Positions 1,771-40,833 of a stretch of DNA of 41,537 nt are shown in pieces; position 1 is the stretch's first letter; the number at the start of each line of letters is the position of its first letter. Origin of the DNA: a virus; IMG/VR virus record IMGVR_UViG_3300036820_000624, positions 1 through 41,537 of that record, one strand, 5' to 3'. Below the pieces are notes generated by a model. That model searched no databases, was not told where the DNA came from, and saw nothing but the letters and a program-made list of their open reading frames with translations. A program made the position numbers and the translations under genes.

Positions 1771-4700
1771 TTACTGTACGCGACCGAATGAATACTGCAT
1801 TACCGCGTTCCCCGGCGATCCCCCGAGCACGCTGGTGAGAGTCACAGTCCCGGTGCATGTCGCCGTGCCGCTCGTGCAGGTTGCCGTTGTCGGCGCTGTA
1901 GTACACGCGCCGCCGCGAGCCGTTATCGTGATCGCGCCAGCGGTTCCGCCTGACACCGCCATCGTCGCTGTTGTACCGGAACAGGAGTCATTGAAAGTCG
2001 CCAGACTGACATTCCCCGTGCCGCTCAGCGTTCCACCGCTCGCGTAGGCCGCGCTGGCGACACCGGTAGCTGTGAAGTATATCGAGTCGGTGATCGTGCT
2101 GGCTGCGGTCGTCAGTCCCACGGACGGCGTGATGATGATGTTCGACCACGAGCCGTTGGCCGCAGAACTATAAGCTGTGGTTGACGATAGATTCCCGAAA
2201 CCCTGCGTAGTCGTGAGGCCTGTTAGTGACCAGGAGAGAACTCCGCCTATGCCCACGCCATTGCTGCTGAGGGCGATGGTTGATTCGTTCTCGTAAATGG
2301 TTTTTGCTCCATAGACCAGGCGCAGACCTGTGTTGGCGATAGAGGCAGGGCTCGACGAGGGAGAAAATACTCCAACGTTCGAGACAAACCGCTGATAGGA
2401 GCCAGCCGCGACCATATTTGCCGGCGTCGTATAACTGTTAGCGAAAGTGTAAGGCGTCCCGCTAATCGCGTCATTCGTCGTGTTGGCGCAGGCCAGCGAT
2501 AGTGTCCCACCCGACCCGAAGGTTCCGGGGTTGGAGCTGTTGGTGATGGTAATACTCGTGGAGGTTGAACTTGTGACGGTGAACGGCGTGCCGAGCGTCG
2601 AGTTCGTGCCGAGCGTGCTCAGGATATTGATAGGCTCGCCGATAATCTGATATAGGTTCGGGAGAGACGACACCGTATAAGTGATGGTGCTCGATGTCGA
2701 ACTGCCACCCGTAACCGACACTGCATCGATGGTTGAATCGTTAGCTACGGCGCAGGCGAGATCGCCAGGTGCCTGGGTGAATGTCGGCACGAATCCGGGG
2801 CATCCTGAAGTAGTCGCCCCTCCCACCGAGTCGGTGCACAGTGGATTTCCAGCCCCGCCAGCAACTGGTCCCGCACTGAGCAATGTTGAATCAGTGCCTT
2901 GGATACCAGTCACGGCTCCGCTGCTTCCGACTGCAAGGGAAGGAAATGTGCAAACGGCTCCTGTACACGAGTACTGAAGTGTGTACGAGGGTGTGCCTGC
3001 CGTAGCCGGAGCACTGTAGACACCGAGCCACGTCGCTCCCGATGATCTGCCGGTGCAGTACTCGGTGTAGTTGAAAGAGGATGGCGTTCCGTTCCAGACC
3101 CTGTATTGAGAGCAGACTTCCAACGATGATCCGGGTCCGTTCGTGTCTGTCGTCACTGCCATCAGGCAACTGCTGGTGAGCTGATTGTCGGATGAGCAGG
3201 ATGTCATGCCCGGAATCGAAGACGCGGACCCGATGAACGCGCTGTTCACGTTCTTGCCCATCGAATTGACATAGTAGGTCAGCGTTCCGCCCACGTCTGA
3301 CAGCCAGACCATGTAGTTGCTGCCTGCAGTCGGGAAGCCCTGACTCTTGCCGCCGTCGAGCACGATGTTCGACACGAGGCTTACGGTTCCGCCCGTGCAT
3401 CCAGTGATCGAGGTTCCGGTGACTGTCGTGGTGTAGAGCACCATTTGCGTGGAATTGGCCGACAGCAAATACATCGGCGTAGTGGTATTCAGACCGCTGC
3501 AACCTGCGCCCCCGGTGTACCCGGAGGTGGTGAATTGCCAGCCGGTTACGAAGATCGCAGATGGAATGACTGAGCAATTGCCCTGCGTGCCGATCGTTGC
3601 GGAAGCGACTGCCGTTCCACTGAGAACGGCGGTTGCTGACGGGTTGACCGTACAAGTGCCCCCGATGAACAAGATCTGAGGTGGCTGGCCAGGGGGATAT
3701 GTTCCACCGGCGGTAACCGTAATCCCGGTTACAAATGTTCCCGATGGAGTGACAGTTCCTGTTGCTCCCCCTACAGGTGCATTGTTGGCGAGATTCGTGA
3801 TGGTCAGCAGGTTCGACGCGACCGAATAGCCGACACCACCCGACATGTTGTAGGTATTCGCCTGAGCAACAAGTTCAGCACCTGCCGCCGAGAAGTTCAG
3901 AATGTAGGGCTGGCCGGTCTCCTGACCACCTGCAAGAGTGGTGATGGTTCCGTTGAATGCGCTGGAGACTGAAGCAGAGACAGTTCCTGGCAGGGTAAGC
4001 GTGGAACCGACAACTCCGCTACTGCCGATGGGGGCTGGAACGAGGTTCTCTGTGATGTCGTACGATGACTGGGCGAAATCGTTGACGAAGTTCACTCCCT
4101 GCTGTCGATTGAATGCAGCACCCAGATAAAGCTGTGTCGCCTGGTTGGCGATGCCCCAAGTGCCTCCGACCACATTCATTGCGGCTTTAGTTCCGGAACT
4201 TTGCAGGTTGTAGAGCCAGCTATTCGCTGTGCCGAGGTAACCGGCCCAGTATTCGCCGTCATCTTCGATGCCGTAGTTCTGTGACCCTCCGCTGGTCAGC
4301 AACCACCCCTGCGTGATTCTGTCGCCACCAGTAGTGAGATTGCAGCCTTCGTGATGCAGGCCAAACATATTGATCGCATTCGCGCCGTTGAACTGCCCGA
4401 TTCCACCGCCGCCCTGCATCGTTCCGCCAGTGATCGTCAGGTTGTAGGGGTTCGTAGTCGCATTCAGCCATGCGGTGCCGCTGCTCGTCCCGGTGCCAGC
4501 AGCTACGCTGGCTCGGAATGTCAGCGTGCCGGAGCGGACTCTCGTTGTCCCTACGCCGCCGATATTGACGGTCAGACCGTTGAGTTCCTCACCCACCGTG
4601 TCCGAGTAGCCGATGATTCCGATTCTGTTGCCGTTAACCAGCGGGACGACAGATGTGAATGGGATAGAGACGTTTCCGCTGCCGTCAATGGTCGGGGTGC

Positions 4701-34805: not shown

Positions 34806-35324
34806 CTAGGATTCGGAAGTCCGATTCCATCGGCTACGATTGCCCACCCCGTTCTTGTTGCCTCGCATACCGTCACTCAGTTTGCGGCGCGTCTCGGCAG
34901 GTAGATTTCTGCGATGGGCTGCGACCTTCGCCCGATGCTCTGGGGATTGCGGTCCCAGTGGCACACCACGCTTGCTGGCGCTGATGCGCTTGCAGGACTC
35001 GGGTGTATGAGGTCCTCCGCCACCACCCAGTCGGACGTTGTATCCGCCGTCAGTCTCAAGGCTGCCCCACGCCCAGATGGCCCGAACCTCCATCGCGTTT
35101 AGTTCTTCTGGACTGAACGCCTGATGCAGGAGCACCATCTGGAAGCCATCGGGTCCGTATTTGCGGATCGCGTTGTAGAGCGGGTAACCGGTGCCGGTCT
35201 TGCTGTAGCGGGCATCGCGCAGATGTCCGGCCCACCGTTGGGCCAGTGACTTAGTTGTCTGGCCCACGTAGATTTTGCCGTTGAGCAGATTTCGGATCAG
35301 GTAAATGCAGCCGTGTGGTCTCAT
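34806..35324 (-). CDS. GIY-YIG endonuclease with NUMOD3 motifs, 172 aa
   Basis: The GIY-YIG domain covers residues 5-100: C-I-Y-L (Tyr8), K-I-Y-V-G-Q-T (Tyr19), Arg30 in QRWAGH, the catalytic Glu79 in NAMEVRAI and the closing GGYNVRLGGGG. Three NUMOD3-type repeats follow: TPESCKRISASKRG (about 107-120), SPEHRAKVAAHRRN (127-140) and PAETRRKLSDGMRG (142-155). This is the standard architecture of phage and mobile-intron homing endonucleases. I chose ATG 35324 because the domain starts there; the frame stays open for 121 codons upstream but that part shows no homology or ribosome-binding site. The role is probably a free-standing homing endonuclease. Confidence 0.88.
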   Translation of the reverse strand: MRPHGCIYLIRNLLNGKIYVGQTTKSLAQRWAGHLRDARYSKTGTGYPLYNAIRKYGPDGFQMVLLHQAFSPEELNAMEVRAIWAWGSLETDGGYNVRLGGGGGPHTPESCKRISASKRGVPLGPQSPEHRAKVAAHRRNLPAETRRKLSDGMRGNKNGVGNRSRWNRTSES

Positions 35325-35485
35325 ACCACAGGGGCCAGAAGCTGCATTGCCGGGTCTGCGGACCGCCCGCGTGCCGAGAATCCGTTCTGAGCGTTTCGGG
35401 GTAGGGTAACGCCAGCCCGTGGCCGCGGATGCCTCGAACGGCAGAGCGCGGACGAGGCGAGCCAGTTTATGCGGTGTCGAGAGGG

Positions 35486-35578
35486 CTACTTCAAGGCCAC
35501 GGCGACTACGAATGCAAGAAACTGAATGATCAGGGTTCCGAAAAGAACTCCGCACAGGTGTGTCCGAGTGAGGTTCAT
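35486..35578 (-). CDS. 30-aa membrane peptide coupled to the DUF1376 gene
   Basis: ATG 35578 opens MNLTRTHLCGVLFGTLIIQF and continues hydrophobic to the stop TAG (35488-35486). It is a single membrane helix with a positive N-terminal end. The start overlaps the previous stop (TGATG), the same junction seen elsewhere in this phage, which supports translation. No family is recognised. A toxin-like, lysis-linked or regulator peptide is possible. Confidence 0.5.
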   Translation of the reverse strand: MNLTRTHLCGVLFGTLIIQFLAFVVAVALK

Positions 35579-36606
35579 CAATGCACCATCCCTGCCGTCG
35601 CGTGCGTCTGCATGTGTTCCTGCATCTCGCGTCCCGAAAACAGATTTCCACACAGTTCACAGAAATCCATAGTCGAATTCTCCACAAAGGAATTGTCTGA
35701 AAGCGCGACGGTCTGGGCCACCGGCTTGACGAAGTCGCGGCGGCTCCGCTCGTCCATAATCTGGGGCAAACAGCAGACCAGCATGGCCGGAGGCAACTTC
35801 ACGCCTTCGCCCAAGACCTTCTCCTGCCACAGAGGCTTCTTCATTGCGGCGGTCATGGTCTTCAGAATCTCTTCCTCGGAGTTCTCTGTCAGGACGGCGT
35901 AGACCTTCTCTTTCTGCTTTTCCCAGGTCTCTGGTTTGCGGATTTTCACGCCTGTCAGTTCTTCGGCTCGGATTAGGATACGGTCTGCAGGGCCAGAATG
36001 GCCTTCGGACTCAACAGGCGTATGAGGCTTCATTCCAATCACAGACAGAGAAGTGTTCGCGTTAGGGGGAGTCTGTTTCCTGTTCAACGTCTCCTGTTGT
36101 GCGGGGGTTTCTCCTAACCTACCTAAACCTAACCCTTCCGAAGGCGAAAGCGAAAACGAAAGGTTACAGTTCCGTTGTAACGACTCTGTAACGGAAGTGT
36201 AACGGACGTTATCATCTAACTTGTTCGATACCTCGGGCTTCGCAGACTTGGGCTCGGAACCCCAACGGAACCTGGCTGATTTCTTTCCCGCTTCCGACGC
36301 AAATTGCTTTTGCTTTTGCTGTTTACTGCGCTCTTTTTCAAGTCGCGGATTGATCAGCCGAGACGGGTCTCTCCGGTCCGGTACGAAGCAATCGATAACG
36401 ACCCTTACAGTGCGTTCGCATGCGTCCTTCAGCAGTCTGCTCAGGCGCTCGGGGTCTGCTGGAATGCTGCCCTGGTTCCACGCAATGCAAAGGGCCGTAA
36501 TGTAGGCCCCGCGCTCTTCCAAACTCATTGCCATCACGTTTTCGTCTGCGAGGAAATCGCCAGCGTAGAACCGGAAGGCCGGACTTTTTTCATTCGCTTT
36601 TGCCAT
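35578..36606 (-). CDS. DUF1376 (YdaU-like) protein with C-terminal C2H2 finger, 342 aa
   Basis: Residues 8-75 carry the DUF1376 signature FRFYAGDFLADENVMAMSLE then ERGAYITALCIAWNQGSIP and RLSRLLKD. This family is found in replication regions of many lambdoid-type prophages and is thought to help start phage replication. A basic linker follows (KERSKQQKQKQFASEAGKKS), then a long middle part with RAEELTGVKIRKPETWEKQK. The extreme C-terminus has a C2H2 finger (Cys316, Cys319, His331, His335; CELCGNLF ... HMQTHA), an unusual addition. The start overlaps the end of the NUMOD3 gene by 17 nt. Confidence 0.78.
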   Translation of the reverse strand: MAKANEKSPAFRFYAGDFLADENVMAMSLEERGAYITALCIAWNQGSIPADPERLSRLLKDACERTVRVVIDCFVPDRRDPSRLINPRLEKERSKQQKQKQFASEAGKKSARFRWGSEPKSAKPEVSNKLDDNVRYTSVTESLQRNCNLSFSLSPSEGLGLGRLGETPAQQETLNRKQTPPNANTSLSVIGMKPHTPVESEGHSGPADRILIRAEELTGVKIRKPETWEKQKEKVYAVLTENSEEEILKTMTAAMKKPLWQEKVLGEGVKLPPAMLVCCLPQIMDERSRRDFVKPVAQTVALSDNSFVENSTMDFCELCGNLFSGREMQEHMQTHATAGMVH

Positions 36607-36979
36607 TGACTGCCCCCTTCAGCATTGCGGCCGCCAGCTCCGGATTGTTGCCCAAGGCGAGATCCCATTTCGCGATAGTTGCCGGCGAGAACTGCCCGCC
36701 GTTTGCCTGGCGGCGGAGGAAAGCATGACGGTTGGCAGCGCGAACAGGCCGATACCCCAACTTGGCAACACTTTGTTTCTTCCGGGTCTCTGGACTGTGC
36801 CGGCGACCTGTCTTTCCCTTGTTCGCGCGTCCATTGACACTGCCGATTTTCTTTGCGATAGCGCGTCTCCGCCCGTCGTCCTGTGCCCATGATGCCAGTG
36901 ATGCCGCCTTCAGCTTCACCAACTGCTCCGGCGAGCGGGGACCGCGTCGTTTATCTACTTTCGGTGCGACAAAATCCAT
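36590..36979 (-). CDS. NUMOD3-like DNA-binding protein without nuclease, 129 aa
   Basis: Basic throughout. Two NUMOD3-like blocks are visible: GPRSPEQLVKLKAASLASW (about residues 13-31) and HSPETRKKQSVAKLGYRP (61-78). Between them is a basic segment RRRAIAKKIGSVNGRANKGK. No GIY-YIG or HNH motif is present. ATG 36979 (MDFVAPK) follows GAGGAG by 8 nt; the frame is open 19 codons further upstream. It is the first gene of a leftward unit with the DUF1376 protein, a small peptide and the GIY-YIG enzyme. A regulator or origin-binding protein is a guess. Confidence 0.7.
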   Translation of the reverse strand: MDFVAPKVDKRRGPRSPEQLVKLKAASLASWAQDDGRRRAIAKKIGSVNGRANKGKTGRRHSPETRKKQSVAKLGYRPVRAANRHAFLRRQANGGQFSPATIAKWDLALGNNPELAAAMLKGAVNGKSE

Positions 36980-37033
36980 AATGATAACTCCTCTAACTTG
37001 GTACTCGGGAAACGGAACACAAGAGGGCATTAT

Positions 37034-37072
37034 CAAAAAGAAAGGCCCAGCCTCTGCATAAGGGGCTGGGCC
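37034..37072 (-). terminator. Intrinsic terminator after the dioxygenase gene
   Basis: GGCCCAGCC (37044-37052) and GGCTGGGCC (37064-37072) are perfect complements. On the minus strand the stem is followed by TTTCTTTTTG. It isolates the dioxygenase unit from the genes to its left. Confidence 0.85.
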
Positions 37073-37087
37073 GATATAGATAGCCGA

Positions 37088-37918
37088 CTATTTGGTGCAC
37101 AAGTGCATTCGCTCGCGGACATAGAGGACGACCGACAAACGATGACCAATCAGCGGCGGATTTGCATGAGCCTGGTGCGGGTCAAAGAGCAGAACGTCGC
37201 CAGCGCGGATATCAAAATGTAGATTGAAGCGGGGCAGGACCAGACCAGAACCTTGAAAGTTCCCGTCGGCAATGAGCGCGGCAGTCCCATTCGGCAAGTC
37301 GTCAGCGTCCACGTGAACCGCCGCACGACTGTCAACATTCACCGTCAGCGTTCCGAAACCGTGGCGACCAATCCGATAAGCCGGGTCGATCTTTTCAACT
37401 TCGACCATTTGCGCCGCGTGCTGAATCGGGCAGTATTCCATGAAGACTCTATCTACAGCGGCGACCAGAGGAAGGACTCCCTTGTAGGCGGTGATATCAG
37501 CCAGTGTCCACTGGCTCTGACGACAGGCAATTTCTCCGGTAGGGGAATCGCGATAATCAAAATATCCCAAGATTCCAGTGCGACCGAGCTTCTTGACGAT
37601 GGACTTTGGCACACCCCGGCGCTGGCTCATCGTGCCGTCCTTCCGAATGCGGTTCTCCTGCGTGACGCCGGCAAATCCAGAACGATTGCTGAAGTCGCCG
37701 GAGGCGCGCAGCAGCCCCGGACGGGCATTGCACTGGAACTCCAGAGACAAGCAACCCTTCACAAACGTGGCGATGAACCGGCCCTGGTCGTCAATGACGT
37801 TCACCGAGCGGTCAATCAGAGTGCAGCCTTCGGCAGTAATCCGCGTGCCCATGAGACGCTTCATCTGTTCAGGGGTGCGTGGAGGAGCACACACAAATCC
37901 ATCGAGTTTATTGAACAA
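37088..37918 (-). CDS. TET/JBP-like 2-oxoglutarate/Fe(II) dioxygenase, 276 aa
   Basis: The C-terminal half has the full set of residues of the nucleic-acid-type double-stranded beta-helix dioxygenases. FGTLTVNVDSRAAVHVDADD supplies H-x-D (His202, Asp204). A glycine turn follows (ADGNFQGSGLVLPRF), then DIRAGDVLLFDPHQAHANP with the distal His251, and HRLSVVLYVRER with the 2-oxoglutarate Arg260. The NxxxRTA/VHxDxxDLP-like order is typical of phage members of the TET/JBP group, which hydroxylate 5-methylpyrimidines in DNA. The N-terminal 180 residues are family-specific. The start is TTG 37918 with an ideal GGAGG six bases before it. It overlaps the upstream gene by 11 nt and is followed by a terminator. 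Activity on phage DNA is inferred. Confidence 0.78.
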   Translation of the reverse strand: MFNKLDGFVCAPPRTPEQMKRLMGTRITAEGCTLIDRSVNVIDDQGRFIATFVKGCLSLEFQCNARPGLLRASGDFSNRSGFAGVTQENRIRKDGTMSQRRGVPKSIVKKLGRTGILGYFDYRDSPTGEIACRQSQWTLADITAYKGVLPLVAAVDRVFMEYCPIQHAAQMVEVEKIDPAYRIGRHGFGTLTVNVDSRAAVHVDADDLPNGTAALIADGNFQGSGLVLPRFNLHFDIRAGDVLLFDPHQAHANPPLIGHRLSVVLYVRERMHLCTK

Positions 37919-38591
37919 GGGGAACCTCCATTTCCTGCACAGCCGGTACCGGCGCGGCGGTCGGGCGAAGGTCCACCAGCGAAATGAGAGCCTGTTCGGC
38001 GCTCACCCCTTCCAGAACGCACATGACGACTTCGTGAAACAGCGACTGGCACGTTTTGACGTTCTTCAACTGCCACTTCTTGAAGCTCTCACGCTCCTGC
38101 GGGGAGAGGTTGTGCACATGAAGCGTCAGCGTGGAGTGATTGCCCTCATTGCTGCGTTTGCGTGCGTCGTCTGCCTTTTTCTGTTCTTCGGCTTCCAACT
38201 GTTTTAGTTCCTCATCCTGGGGGTCAGCCTGTGCTTCACCGGTTGCAAACGGCTTCGGTTCATCTTGGGTCTCAGGGGAAATCGCCCCGTTCGGTGCCTT
38301 TTCGAATTCTTCAATCCAACGGTCGGCTGAAGTGCGAGGGAGCCGAACTTCACGCAGAAATGCCGCCCACTTGCCGCTGCGTCCCTTGCGCGCCAGTTCC
38401 GCCTTCATCTCGCGCAAATACTTGCCGAGTTCCCACTTGTTCTCCCGCCGCGAAGCAAGCAGGCCCTTAATCTGACCGGCCAAAAACTCCTCGCGGGAAT
38501 TGTCTTCCTGAATCTCTTCGGTCACGGGGCTGGCTTCTTCCAACGCCGTCAACTGAGGTTCAGGTGCGTTCATCACAGCTTCCAGGTCCAC
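37908..38591 (-). CDS. DUF3102-like protein paired with the dioxygenase, 227 aa
   Basis: Residues about 35-98 fit the DUF3102 layout: GQIKGLLASRRENKWELGKY, LREMKAELARKGRSGKW, FLREVRLPRTSADRWIEEFE. The pattern (helix, W-x-x-F, T-x-D/A-R) suggests a helix-turn-helix used in phage and plasmid replication or partition proteins. An acidic Glu/Gln-rich linker follows. The C-terminal domain (TLTLHVHNLSPQERESFKKW ... ALISLVDL) is not recognised. GTG 38591 was chosen because AAGGAG lies six bases upstream; TTG 38615 and ATG 38573 are alternatives. The 11-nt overlap with the dioxygenase suggests a shared job, perhaps guiding the enzyme to DNA. Confidence 0.68.
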   Translation of the reverse strand: MDLEAVMNAPEPQLTALEEASPVTEEIQEDNSREEFLAGQIKGLLASRRENKWELGKYLREMKAELARKGRSGKWAAFLREVRLPRTSADRWIEEFEKAPNGAISPETQDEPKPFATGEAQADPQDEELKQLEAEEQKKADDARKRSNEGNHSTLTLHVHNLSPQERESFKKWQLKNVKTCQSLFHEVVMCVLEGVSAEQALISLVDLRPTAAPVPAVQEMEVPLVQ

Positions 38592-38703
38592 AGCTTTCTC
38601 CTTTATTTCGCCCAAAATCCGTCTGTCTCGGGGGCGTAAAAGGAAATACCAGGTTGGTGAGGATTTTCCGGAAGAGAATTTGCTCGCTCGCGCTGCAAAC
38701 GGA

Positions 38704-38725
38704 AACCCCGGCTTTCGCCGGGGTT
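38704..38725 (-). terminator. GNRA-loop hairpin, terminator of the integrase-side genes
   Basis: AACCCCGGC-GAAA-GCCGGGGTT (minus strand, 38725-38704) is a perfect 9-bp stem with GAAA loop, followed by TCCGTTTGC. It lies 30 nt after the 146-aa gene. The T-run is short. Confidence 0.65.
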
Positions 38726-38754
38726 GCTGAGGTGTTCAGGAGTCGTTGTCAGGC

Positions 38755-39195
38755 TTATTTCGCCTTCAGCATTCCTTCCCAGAAGCTGAGGCCGACGGTT
38801 TCCGGTACGGGCACCACCGACCGGCTCCACGCCGAGATGAGGTCGAAAGAATCCTCCGGCTTCGGTTGACCCAGTAACGCGAGCATGTGCCCCATGTCGC
38901 GCAGCGTGGTCTCGACCGGGGGCAAGTTGTAGAAACGGATGGGCTCATTGCCTCCCGACACCACAATCGAAACGTTTGGGTCCACCTCAGTCGCCGCCTG
39001 GATCGCCGTTGTTATCACCTGCTGGGAGTTCGCGTACGATTCCGTCCAGTATGCCCCGGTGGGCATATGGTGCTTCTTGCCTGATACAGAATCGATGACA
39101 AAACGGCTGAAGGACGCCGCCTCCATCCGGCTGTGCAGGGTCGCGTACATCTCATCGGTGGCGTGGTGCATTTCGATTCGGGCCATGAATTGCAT
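38755..39195 (-). CDS. Unknown phage protein with ferredoxin-like start, 146 aa
   Basis: The N-terminal 80 residues (FMARIEMHHATDEMYATLHS, RMEAASFSRFVIDSVSG, HHMPTGAYWTESYANSQQV) alternate strands and helices as in small Cas2/ferredoxin-like folds such as the GhoS antitoxin. This is a fold-level impression, not homology. The C-terminal part is unassigned. ATG 39195 was chosen because AAGGAG lies 8-9 nt before it; ATG 39270 is in frame and possible. It is downstream of the excisionase and ahead of a terminator. Confidence 0.6.
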   Translation of the reverse strand: MQFMARIEMHHATDEMYATLHSRMEAASFSRFVIDSVSGKKHHMPTGAYWTESYANSQQVITTAIQAATEVDPNVSIVVSGGNEPIRFYNLPPVETTLRDMGHMLALLGQPKPEDSFDLISAWSRSVVPVPETVGLSFWEGMLKAK

Positions 39196-39302
39196 GGAGG
39201 GGATCTCCTTGTCGCCAGCTTGGCCCTGATTTGCTGGTGTGTCAATGGGTATTTCAGTAACCTGGCCCATTCCGGTTTGAGCACCTCCGAGACAGTGCGG
39301 TG

Positions 39303-39497
39303 TCAGAGACTCCGAGCCTCCAGCCAATCCGCAAGCCGCGCCGGATCGAACATGAGCCGCGACCCAATCCGCAAATGCGGGAGCCGACCGTCCCAGGCCC
39401 AGCGATAAATCGTCTGGCGGTCCTTGCTCAAGACGGCGGATACCTGGCGAACCGTGATCAGGCCCTCGAAGGCCCGCAGCTTCTGAACAACATCCAT
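39303..39497 (-). CDS. xis: Excisionase/HTH protein, 64 aa
   Basis: A short winged-helix protein of the MerR-like/HTH_17 excisionase type: LITVRQVSAVLSKDRQTIYR for the helix-turn-helix, WAWDGRLPHLRIGSRLMF for the wing and DPARLADWLEARSL at the end. Such proteins bend attachment-site DNA and direct the integrase towards excision. It lies 79 nt after the integrase on the same strand, the reverse of the common xis-int order in transcription. Its ribosome-binding site (GGGGGA) is buried in a hairpin (see 39500-39532). Confidence 0.85.
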   Translation of the reverse strand: MDVVQKLRAFEGLITVRQVSAVLSKDRQTIYRWAWDGRLPHLRIGSRLMFDPARLADWLEARSL

Positions 39498-39499
39498 AA

Positions 39500-39532
39500 A
39501 ATCCCCCGACGGGTAGTTCCCGCCGAGGGATT
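39500..39532 (-). promoter_or_regulatory. Hairpin covering the xis ribosome-binding site
   Basis: On the minus strand 14 consecutive pairs form between 39532-39519 and 39513-39500 around the loop AACTA, including two G-U pairs. The 3' arm contains the Shine-Dalgarno GGGGGA, and the AUG (39497) follows two bases after the stem. In the opposite strand the two G-U pairs become A-C mismatches. Confidence 0.68.
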
Positions 39533-39576
39533 AGTACTGGGCCGTAGGCGAACACAGGCCGCCACAGGCGATTTAT

Positions 39577-40833
39577 TTATGCCTGTTTCTGAACGAGCAC
39601 CGGCCCTCGCGCGGCGAGCAGTCCCGCGAACGTCGCGTTCACTACTGCCTTCGCTTCAGATGTAGTCTCGCCGCAGAGGTATCGCTCCGTGACCATCAGC
39701 GAAGAGTGACCCAACCAGCTTTTGAGTATCGCGGAACTGACGCCACCGTTGTGATGCCACGTGGCGAAGCTTCTCCTGAACGAATGCAACGTCCACTTGT
39801 CGCAGACGGGATTGTCGCGGCAGGTCTTCCCAGTTTCCGTCACGCACTGACCACAGTTCAATCCCGCTCGCAGCGCCAATCTCTTCAGCGGAAGCAGCAG
39901 ATTGGATTGCACGCCGCCCTTGAGAGCAGGGAAGATGAGGCTCTGGCCCGGATGAGCGTCTCGACGGGCACGCAGGTCACTCAGCAGGTCGTCCGGCAAC
40001 GGCACAAAGCGTACGCGGCGCGATTTCGGAGAGAAGTCGTACTGCTTCTTTTCGCCGACCATGATGTTGCCTCGTTGGAAGTCGATGTCGGAATAGCAGG
40101 CGACGGCGAGCTCCGCCGAGCGAAAGCCGCTGCCCAAAAAGAACCGATACAGAATCTGTTCTTCCGGCTTCGCAGCCGCCAGCAACGCACTGATGTCTTC
40201 CCGCGAGTAGGACACAGCCGGTTTGTCTGTGAAGCGCGGCCACTCGCGTGGTTTCAGGAGTTGGGGCCGGTCCATGCGGCGGAGGAAGGACGACAAAACC
40301 TGCAACCGATGACAAATGCTGTGGGCGCTCAATCCCTGCCGCTGAAGGTCCACGATGAATGCCTGGGCGTCGTCTCGGGTCAGTTCGTCCAGGAACCGCT
40401 TCTTGCAGGACGCGACGAACTTCTCCAATGACAAGTTGTAGCTGGCGTATGTGCCCGGCGATTTCGTTCGGTCTACTTCGTGCAGATATTTATTGACCGC
40501 CTCGCGGAGCGTAACCCGGTCGTCTCCACCCGTTTCTGATACAGGGACCGGGGCAGCAACAACCCCCAGAAGAATTCCTTCCACGCGGTTGGCGATGCGC
40601 CGCTGCGCGATGAGGGCTGCGTCCCCATCAGGCCCCAAAGACTCAAAGACGACGCGACCATTGAGCCAGTAGCGGACGGCGTAAATGCCGCCTGTGAAGG
40701 AGGTGGGTTTGCCTGCGAGGACAGCCCAGTTGGGCTTGAGCTTCCCGCCAGTGAAGACGGGGCGAAGATAGCGGCGGCGACCCTCAGGAGTTACGACCCT
40801 GAGGAGGAGCGTGATGGCTTTGCGAGACGGCAT
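39577..40833 (-). CDS. int: Tyrosine recombinase integrase with zinc-type insertion, 418 aa
   Basis: The enzyme carries out site-specific integration and excision. A SAM-like core-binding domain spans about 105-190 (LREAVNKYLHEVDRTKSPGT). The catalytic domain shows Arg238 (GSGFRSAEL), Lys270 (FSPKSRRVRFVPLP), His350 and Arg353 (LHSFRRSFATW), His376 (WLGHSS) and Tyr385 (VTERYLC), so all expected residues are present. Before the HxxR box is a four-cysteine insertion (Cys327, Cys330, Cys338, Cys344; CGQC...C...C) that should bind zinc. An N-terminal arm-binding part begins AITLLLRVVTPEGRRRYLRP. It is the outermost prophage gene on this side. Confidence 0.95.
   Translation of the reverse strand: MPSRKAITLLLRVVTPEGRRRYLRPVFTGGKLKPNWAVLAGKPTSFTGGIYAVRYWLNGRVVFESLGPDGDAALIAQRRIANRVEGILLGVVAAPVPVSETGGDDRVTLREAVNKYLHEVDRTKSPGTYASYNLSLEKFVASCKKRFLDELTRDDAQAFIVDLQRQGLSAHSICHRLQVLSSFLRRMDRPQLLKPREWPRFTDKPAVSYSREDISALLAAAKPEEQILYRFFLGSGFRSAELAVACYSDIDFQRGNIMVGEKKQYDFSPKSRRVRFVPLPDDLLSDLRARRDAHPGQSLIFPALKGGVQSNLLLPLKRLALRAGLNCGQCVTETGKTCRDNPVCDKWTLHSFRRSFATWHHNGGVSSAILKSWLGHSSLMVTERYLCGETTSEAKAVVNATFAGLLAARGPVLVQKQA

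Follow-up and report, generated by a model that had tools for sequence, protein, structure and literature searches.

What does a TET/JBP-type gene do in a phage genome that carries no recognisable gene for methylating the base or for building on the oxidised product? Human TET proteins oxidise the methyl groups of DNA bases, and phage TETs are usually regarded as initiating DNA hypermodification. Here, we analyse such a gene in an IMG/VR virus record of 41,537 bases (the window, meaning throughout the whole stretch of DNA analysed), for which an earlier note, made from the letters alone, had proposed a TET/JBP-like dioxygenase coupled to a DUF3102-like gene in a prophage. Our preferred reading, at a probability of about 0.55, is that the gene encodes a stripped-down, free-standing DNA 5-methylpyrimidine hydroxylase, made from a two-gene unit of a temperate phage, whose product would stay unelaborated; it draws on sequence comparison and structure prediction. 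The unit and its probable limits are as follows.

37088 to 37918, minus strand: predicted TET/JBP-family 2OG-Fe(II) dioxygenase gene, 276 aa from a TTG start, with H202, D204, H251 and R260
37925 to 37929, minus strand: ribosome-binding site GGAGG of the TET gene, 6 nt 5' of the TTG, read from sequence
37908 to 38591, minus strand: TET partner gene, 227 aa from a GTG at 38591, sharing 11 nt with the TET gene
38598 to 38604, minus strand: ribosome-binding site AAAGGAG of the partner, read from sequence
about 37034 to 37072, minus strand: intrinsic terminator directly 3' of the TET gene, a 9-bp GC-rich GGCCCAGCC/GGCTGGGCC stem with a U-rich tail
38704 to 38725, minus strand: GAAA-tetraloop hairpin, AACCCCGGC GAAA GCCGGGGTT, with a weak T-rich run after it; it lies between a YmfI-like gene and the partner

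The overlap of the two genes (37908-37918) is exactly the 11 nt first read, and the far end of the unit, 38591, coincides with the partner's best start, the GTG behind AAAGGAG that gives 227 aa as against a mechanical 235 aa. The strong terminator described 3' of the TET gene is borne out by RNA folding (-26.7 kcal/mol, z -3.66); the loop being longer than a simple terminator scan allows, that scan found it only in part. On the other side, the hairpin at 38704-38725 is the probable upstream boundary of the unit, the stretch 38680-38760 folding with z -2.82. Both genes have a GC and codon-position pattern native to the record. The next gene upstream (38755-39555), which separates the TET unit from the integrase side, encodes a phage protein of YmfI-like type (NCBIfam NF051477, E 1e-6; PHROG 8894).

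Profile, sequence and fold prediction agree that the 276-aa protein truly belongs to the TET/JBP family of 2OG-Fe(II) dioxygenases, as had been proposed from its HxD, distal histidine and arginine, which are present as H202-V-D204, H251 and R260. It matches Pfam PF12851 (Tet_JBP), which spans both TET and JBP enzymes, with E 5.9e-19 and 68.3 bits (curated cut-off 34.9), residues 116-269 aligning over positions 2-164 of the 164-position profile, and it matches PHROG 24024 with E 5.1e-25. Among PDB sequences it matches CcTET entries alone (E 0.02); when 43 phage TETs are combined into a profile, the three best PDB matches are all to human TET2 (E 0.009). An AlphaFold2 model built on an alignment of 43 phage TETs (pLDDT 85.8, pTM 0.85) was searched against the PDB with Foldseek, and ranks 1-26 are all TET enzymes (CcTet, NgTET1, TET2 and CMD1), running from E 2.8e-13 for CcTet to 6.4e-9; FTO comes next at 1.8e-6, and ALKBH1 likewise ranks after the TET enzymes. 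In the profile and structure checks that the earlier note had suggested, TET thus came first and prolyl and small-molecule hydroxylases were not the best match; with the first 26 fold ranks all TET, such an identity is ruled out.

Phage TETs are, by sequence search, a large known class that is common in phages and rare in the bacterial genomes searched. A six-sequence alignment retrieved at least 562 virus-contig stretches encoding relatives, so the enzyme class counts as known and common in phages; the same alignment found only two relatives in 84,980 species genomes, and among 399 genomes drawn from one phylum the one TET match was the seed itself. Eight phage records with TETs were found by tblastn, annotated as 'SNF2 DNA repair protein', 'DnaJ' or hypothetical. 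The protein of the window stands apart within this class: exact peptide patterns found no close relative of the TET or its partner in viral and genome contigs, and a narrow alignment with the two nearest TETs, those of loci L012 and L051, brought up 65 loci whose identity across most of the domain does not exceed about 37%, a figure of 43% being reached only over a 90-aa end fragment. Two loci met in these searches have features of their own: L089, one of the two in the species-genome collection, is a 1006-aa ORF with a TET domain on a bog gammaproteobacterial MAG contig (5539-8559), and in L147 a second 2OG-Fe(II)-like dioxygenase (3515-4132, by eye) lies immediately 5' of the TET gene.

The family is tied to DNA modification because relatives adjoin DNA-modification genes: 40 genes lying 3' of relatives' TETs include TAGT (13), amidotransferase (10), FkbM (4), N6/N4 methylase (3) and ADDT (2) genes, and aGPT-Pplase3 family genes also occur 3' of some. 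TAGT (PF20691, E<=0.001) is found in 12/42 and 6/12 other TET records. The earlier note had taken a methyltransferase to be the usual neighbour of phage TETs; for the two families tested, C5 (PF00145) occurs in two and N6/N4 (PF01555) in one of 42 other TET records, counts that are lower bounds, many records being fragments. Since the two together are this rare (3/42), the lack of a methyltransferase in the window is normal. The earlier note's reading of the window itself was right: no TAGT (PF20691), C5 (PF00145) or N6/N4 (PF01555) methyltransferase was found in this possibly incomplete record, and no other tested modification family was recognised. The window gave no ParB_N match either.

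On the 5' side, the gene immediately before the TET matches ParB_N in 26 of 29 loci, and a profile built from those ParB_N-matching genes detects a ParB-like gene no more than about 3.5 kb from the TET in 110 of the 118 loci with enough upstream DNA, loci that are not independent, having been gathered by similarity to the window TET or its relatives. In some loci the companion is shorter: gp25 of phage P12024L is a stand-alone copy of the domain that forms the C-terminus of the ParB-like companions. Stand-alone copies of this domain also lie 5' of the TET at L003 (16207-16422, 71 aa) and L132 (5679-5939, 86 aa). The near-constant 5' companion of phage TETs in the sample is a ParB-like gene or just its C-terminal domain, and from the sequences the more constant element would seem to be this domain rather than the ParB part. 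The survey points to the ParB-like protein as a neglected core partner of phage TETs. It is truly unusual for the window to lack both the sugar-adding genes and the customary ParB-like gene, and a minimal TET cassette, though unusual, is plausible.

We infer that the enzyme is active and that its substrate is DNA, in which it would hydroxylate a 5-methylpyrimidine at its methyl group with the help of Fe(II), O2 and 2-oxoglutarate. It would be made from a short two-gene unit along with an orphan small protein. As no gene for adding a sugar, an amide or an amino group is recognised, the product would most likely remain hydroxymethyl (or be further oxidised). The modified base would, by the same reasoning, shield phage DNA from base-sensitive restriction, or would alter methylation made by the host. 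Host methylation is a possible source of 5mC, and host-made 5mC would be a somewhat likelier substrate than thymine, which is an equally simple alternative.

That alternative, a JBP-like hydroxylase converting T directly to 5-hydroxymethyluracil in phage DNA with no need of a methyltransferase, can be held only tentatively. It agrees with the rarity of recognised methyltransferases in TET phages, with the inclusion of JBP as well as TET enzymes in PF12851, and with the ADDT and aGPT-Pplase3 genes 3' of some relatives' TETs, which we take to be families named after thymine hypermodification. However, the solved structures nearest to it are of TETs that act on cytosine (CcTet has also been solved bound to 6mA DNA), and the commonest neighbour is TAGT, which Burke and colleagues are said to have linked to 5hmC.

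A 5-methylpyrimidine hydroxylase with an unelaborated product would have to be read in its genomic setting, for which three further genes matter.

39577 to 40833, minus strand: tyrosine integrase (Phage_integrase, E 4.6e-14)
39303 to 39497, minus strand: AlpA/excisionase-like HTH protein, 64 aa (HTH_17, E 1.5e-12; PHROG 66 excisionase, E 6.8e-8)
35578 to 36606, minus strand: DUF1376/primosomal-like replication gene (PHROG 9327, E 7.7e-13)

The integrase and the AlpA-like HTH gene, as identified by profile, support a temperate phage. Beyond that the label prophage is not borne out: no att repeat of at least 12 nt was found between the record ends and no clear host flank within the record, the right-end ORF having no Pfam match. 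At the record's far end, 465-1505 encodes a nucleoside 2-deoxyribosyltransferase-like protein (PHROG 16139, E 8e-40) that may belong to host or phage. By TerL there is no close cultured phage relative (at most about 27% among the matches listed); the related phage G038 (L090) has a TerL at 67% and shares much of the terminase-to-tail module with the window. The integrase-side genes of the window, TET and partner included, have no match in G038, in which no TET was found, so the TET unit lies in a variable, accessory part of the genome. The replication gene is the only gene besides the TET that resembles an ORF in the first set of TET loci, and distant relatives of it lie about 1 kb 5' of the TET in some TET phages. 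Its product has at its end a zinc-finger motif of C2H2-like type, CELC...HMQTH (the zf-C2H2 match is weak, E 0.13), and the gene is flanked by a GIY-YIG homing-endonuclease-like gene with NUMOD3 motifs (34806-35687) and, on the other side, by a second, small NUMOD3-like gene (36590-37036).

An integrase is present in the window as against 1/32 other TET virus or phage records, which lends something to the idea that the TET serves in the prophage state as a methylation eraser, oxidising host-made 5mC (or 6mA) in host or phage DNA and so altering expression or restriction; the best fold match, CcTet, was solved with both 5mC and 6mA DNA, and the window has no recognised writer or downstream modifier. 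We nevertheless consider this unlikely, as the TET gene runs on the same strand as the replication and virion genes and its relatives sit mostly in integrase-free phages.

The small protein made with the hydroxylase is an orphan. The 227-aa partner has nothing meaningful in Pfam, PHROGs, NCBIfam or PDB sequences, and no relative was found in phage records, plasmids, virus contigs or 145 TET loci. The label DUF3102-like did not hold up, PF11300 giving no match at E<=10 and a Pfam hmmscan likewise returning no DUF3102. The proposed pairing is likewise unsupported as a conserved two-gene module: as far as the searches reach, the partner turned up at none of the other TET loci, among no phage or plasmid records, and not in G038. 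In a single-sequence AlphaFold2 model, helices spanning residues 26-98 are predicted at pLDDT about 90 (66.5 overall), followed by a low-confidence strand-helix-helix tail, and the model has no match under E 0.3 among PDB folds. The partner occupies the position held in relatives by the ParB-like gene, and the predicted topology of its tail resembles the domain at the C-terminus of those ParB-like proteins; neither HMM nor hhalign comparison matched the two, and in a shuffling test against that domain the partner tail gave p 0.07-0.29 as against p<0.005 for P12024L gp25 and the L132 small ORF. By analogy of position, a role comparable to that of a ParB-like helper is a fair guess, and the partner may help the TET to bind or target DNA. 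We consider it improbable that a dedicated, unrelated partner steers the TET of a temperate phage to erase host-made 5mC/6mA or to counter restriction, with no hypermodification involved. If true, this would parallel in a phage the part that TET plays in eukaryotic demethylation.

The favoured hydroxylase is also the most divergent of the TETs compared. All 42 other phage TETs and five named phages share H202, D204, H251 and R260 without exception, and S262 and R268 are also conserved. C132 and C274 are invariant in the 42 relatives and both missing in Cr30 and DLP_6, a pattern that suggests a paired structural or metal site joining the start and the end of the catalytic domain. Among the 52 columns with conservation of 95% or more, the window TET parts from the other 42 at 14, including N196D and G206D near the HxD; no other sequence shows as many departures (L051: 12/55). 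The window TET stops just past C274, the C-terminal tail of its relatives being missing, and it has the longest branch in the phage TET tree, where its nearest neighbours are L012 (34% identity) and L051 (31%), the three forming a clade with support 0.98 (0.05 for the window-L012 pairing alone). Judged from the alignment, the divergence and the short C-terminus could mean a changed substrate, weakened function or relaxed selection. Least probable of all is a decaying relic that has lost its ParB-like and TAGT neighbours, since the long branch, altered columns and shortened C-terminus, and sister lineages L012 and L051 that each keep both neighbours, are set against intact catalytic residues and C132/C274 pair, an open frame, good ribosome sites and terminator and a confident model.

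If the preferred reading is true, this phage, with an integrase and a TET but no elaborating enzymes, would offer a simple system in which to study what bare base hydroxylation brings to a phage, and to ask whether TETs in bacteria target host methylation. The window TET is a real though modest variant within a familiar kind of DNA modification, its enzyme class being already known.

Among known systems, gp26-gp27 of Nonlabens phage P12024L, which we take to be a phage TET with TAGT of the Burke et al. 2021 class, are close in plan: the TET has a Tet_JBP domain, 28.5% identity, the same catalytic residues and a similarly small size, and a small upstream gene overlaps it. No relation could be shown between that gene, gp25, and the window partner, and P12024L differs in having TAGT and an N6/N4 methylase directly 3' of its TET, of which the window has neither. 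In Pelagibacter phage HTVC112P, gp17-gp18-gp19 are a ParB-like protein, a TET and an FkbM methyltransferase; the TET shares 30.7% identity over 99% of the protein and is overlapped by its upstream gene, and a distantly related replication gene lies nearby, whereas the ParB-like gene upstream, the FkbM gene downstream and the lack of a detectable integrase set this phage apart. The two nearest loci in the tree, L012 and L051, likewise differ from the window in having a ParB-like gene 5' and TAGT 3' of the TET, and in the L012 record no integrase was found. Further afield, CcTet of Coprinopsis, NgTET1 and human TET2 are eukaryotic, some with large extra domains, and share 10-15% identity with the window TET over the fold matches, R268 being His in TET2; even so, they have in common with the predicted model the DSBH fold and the arrangement of the active site.
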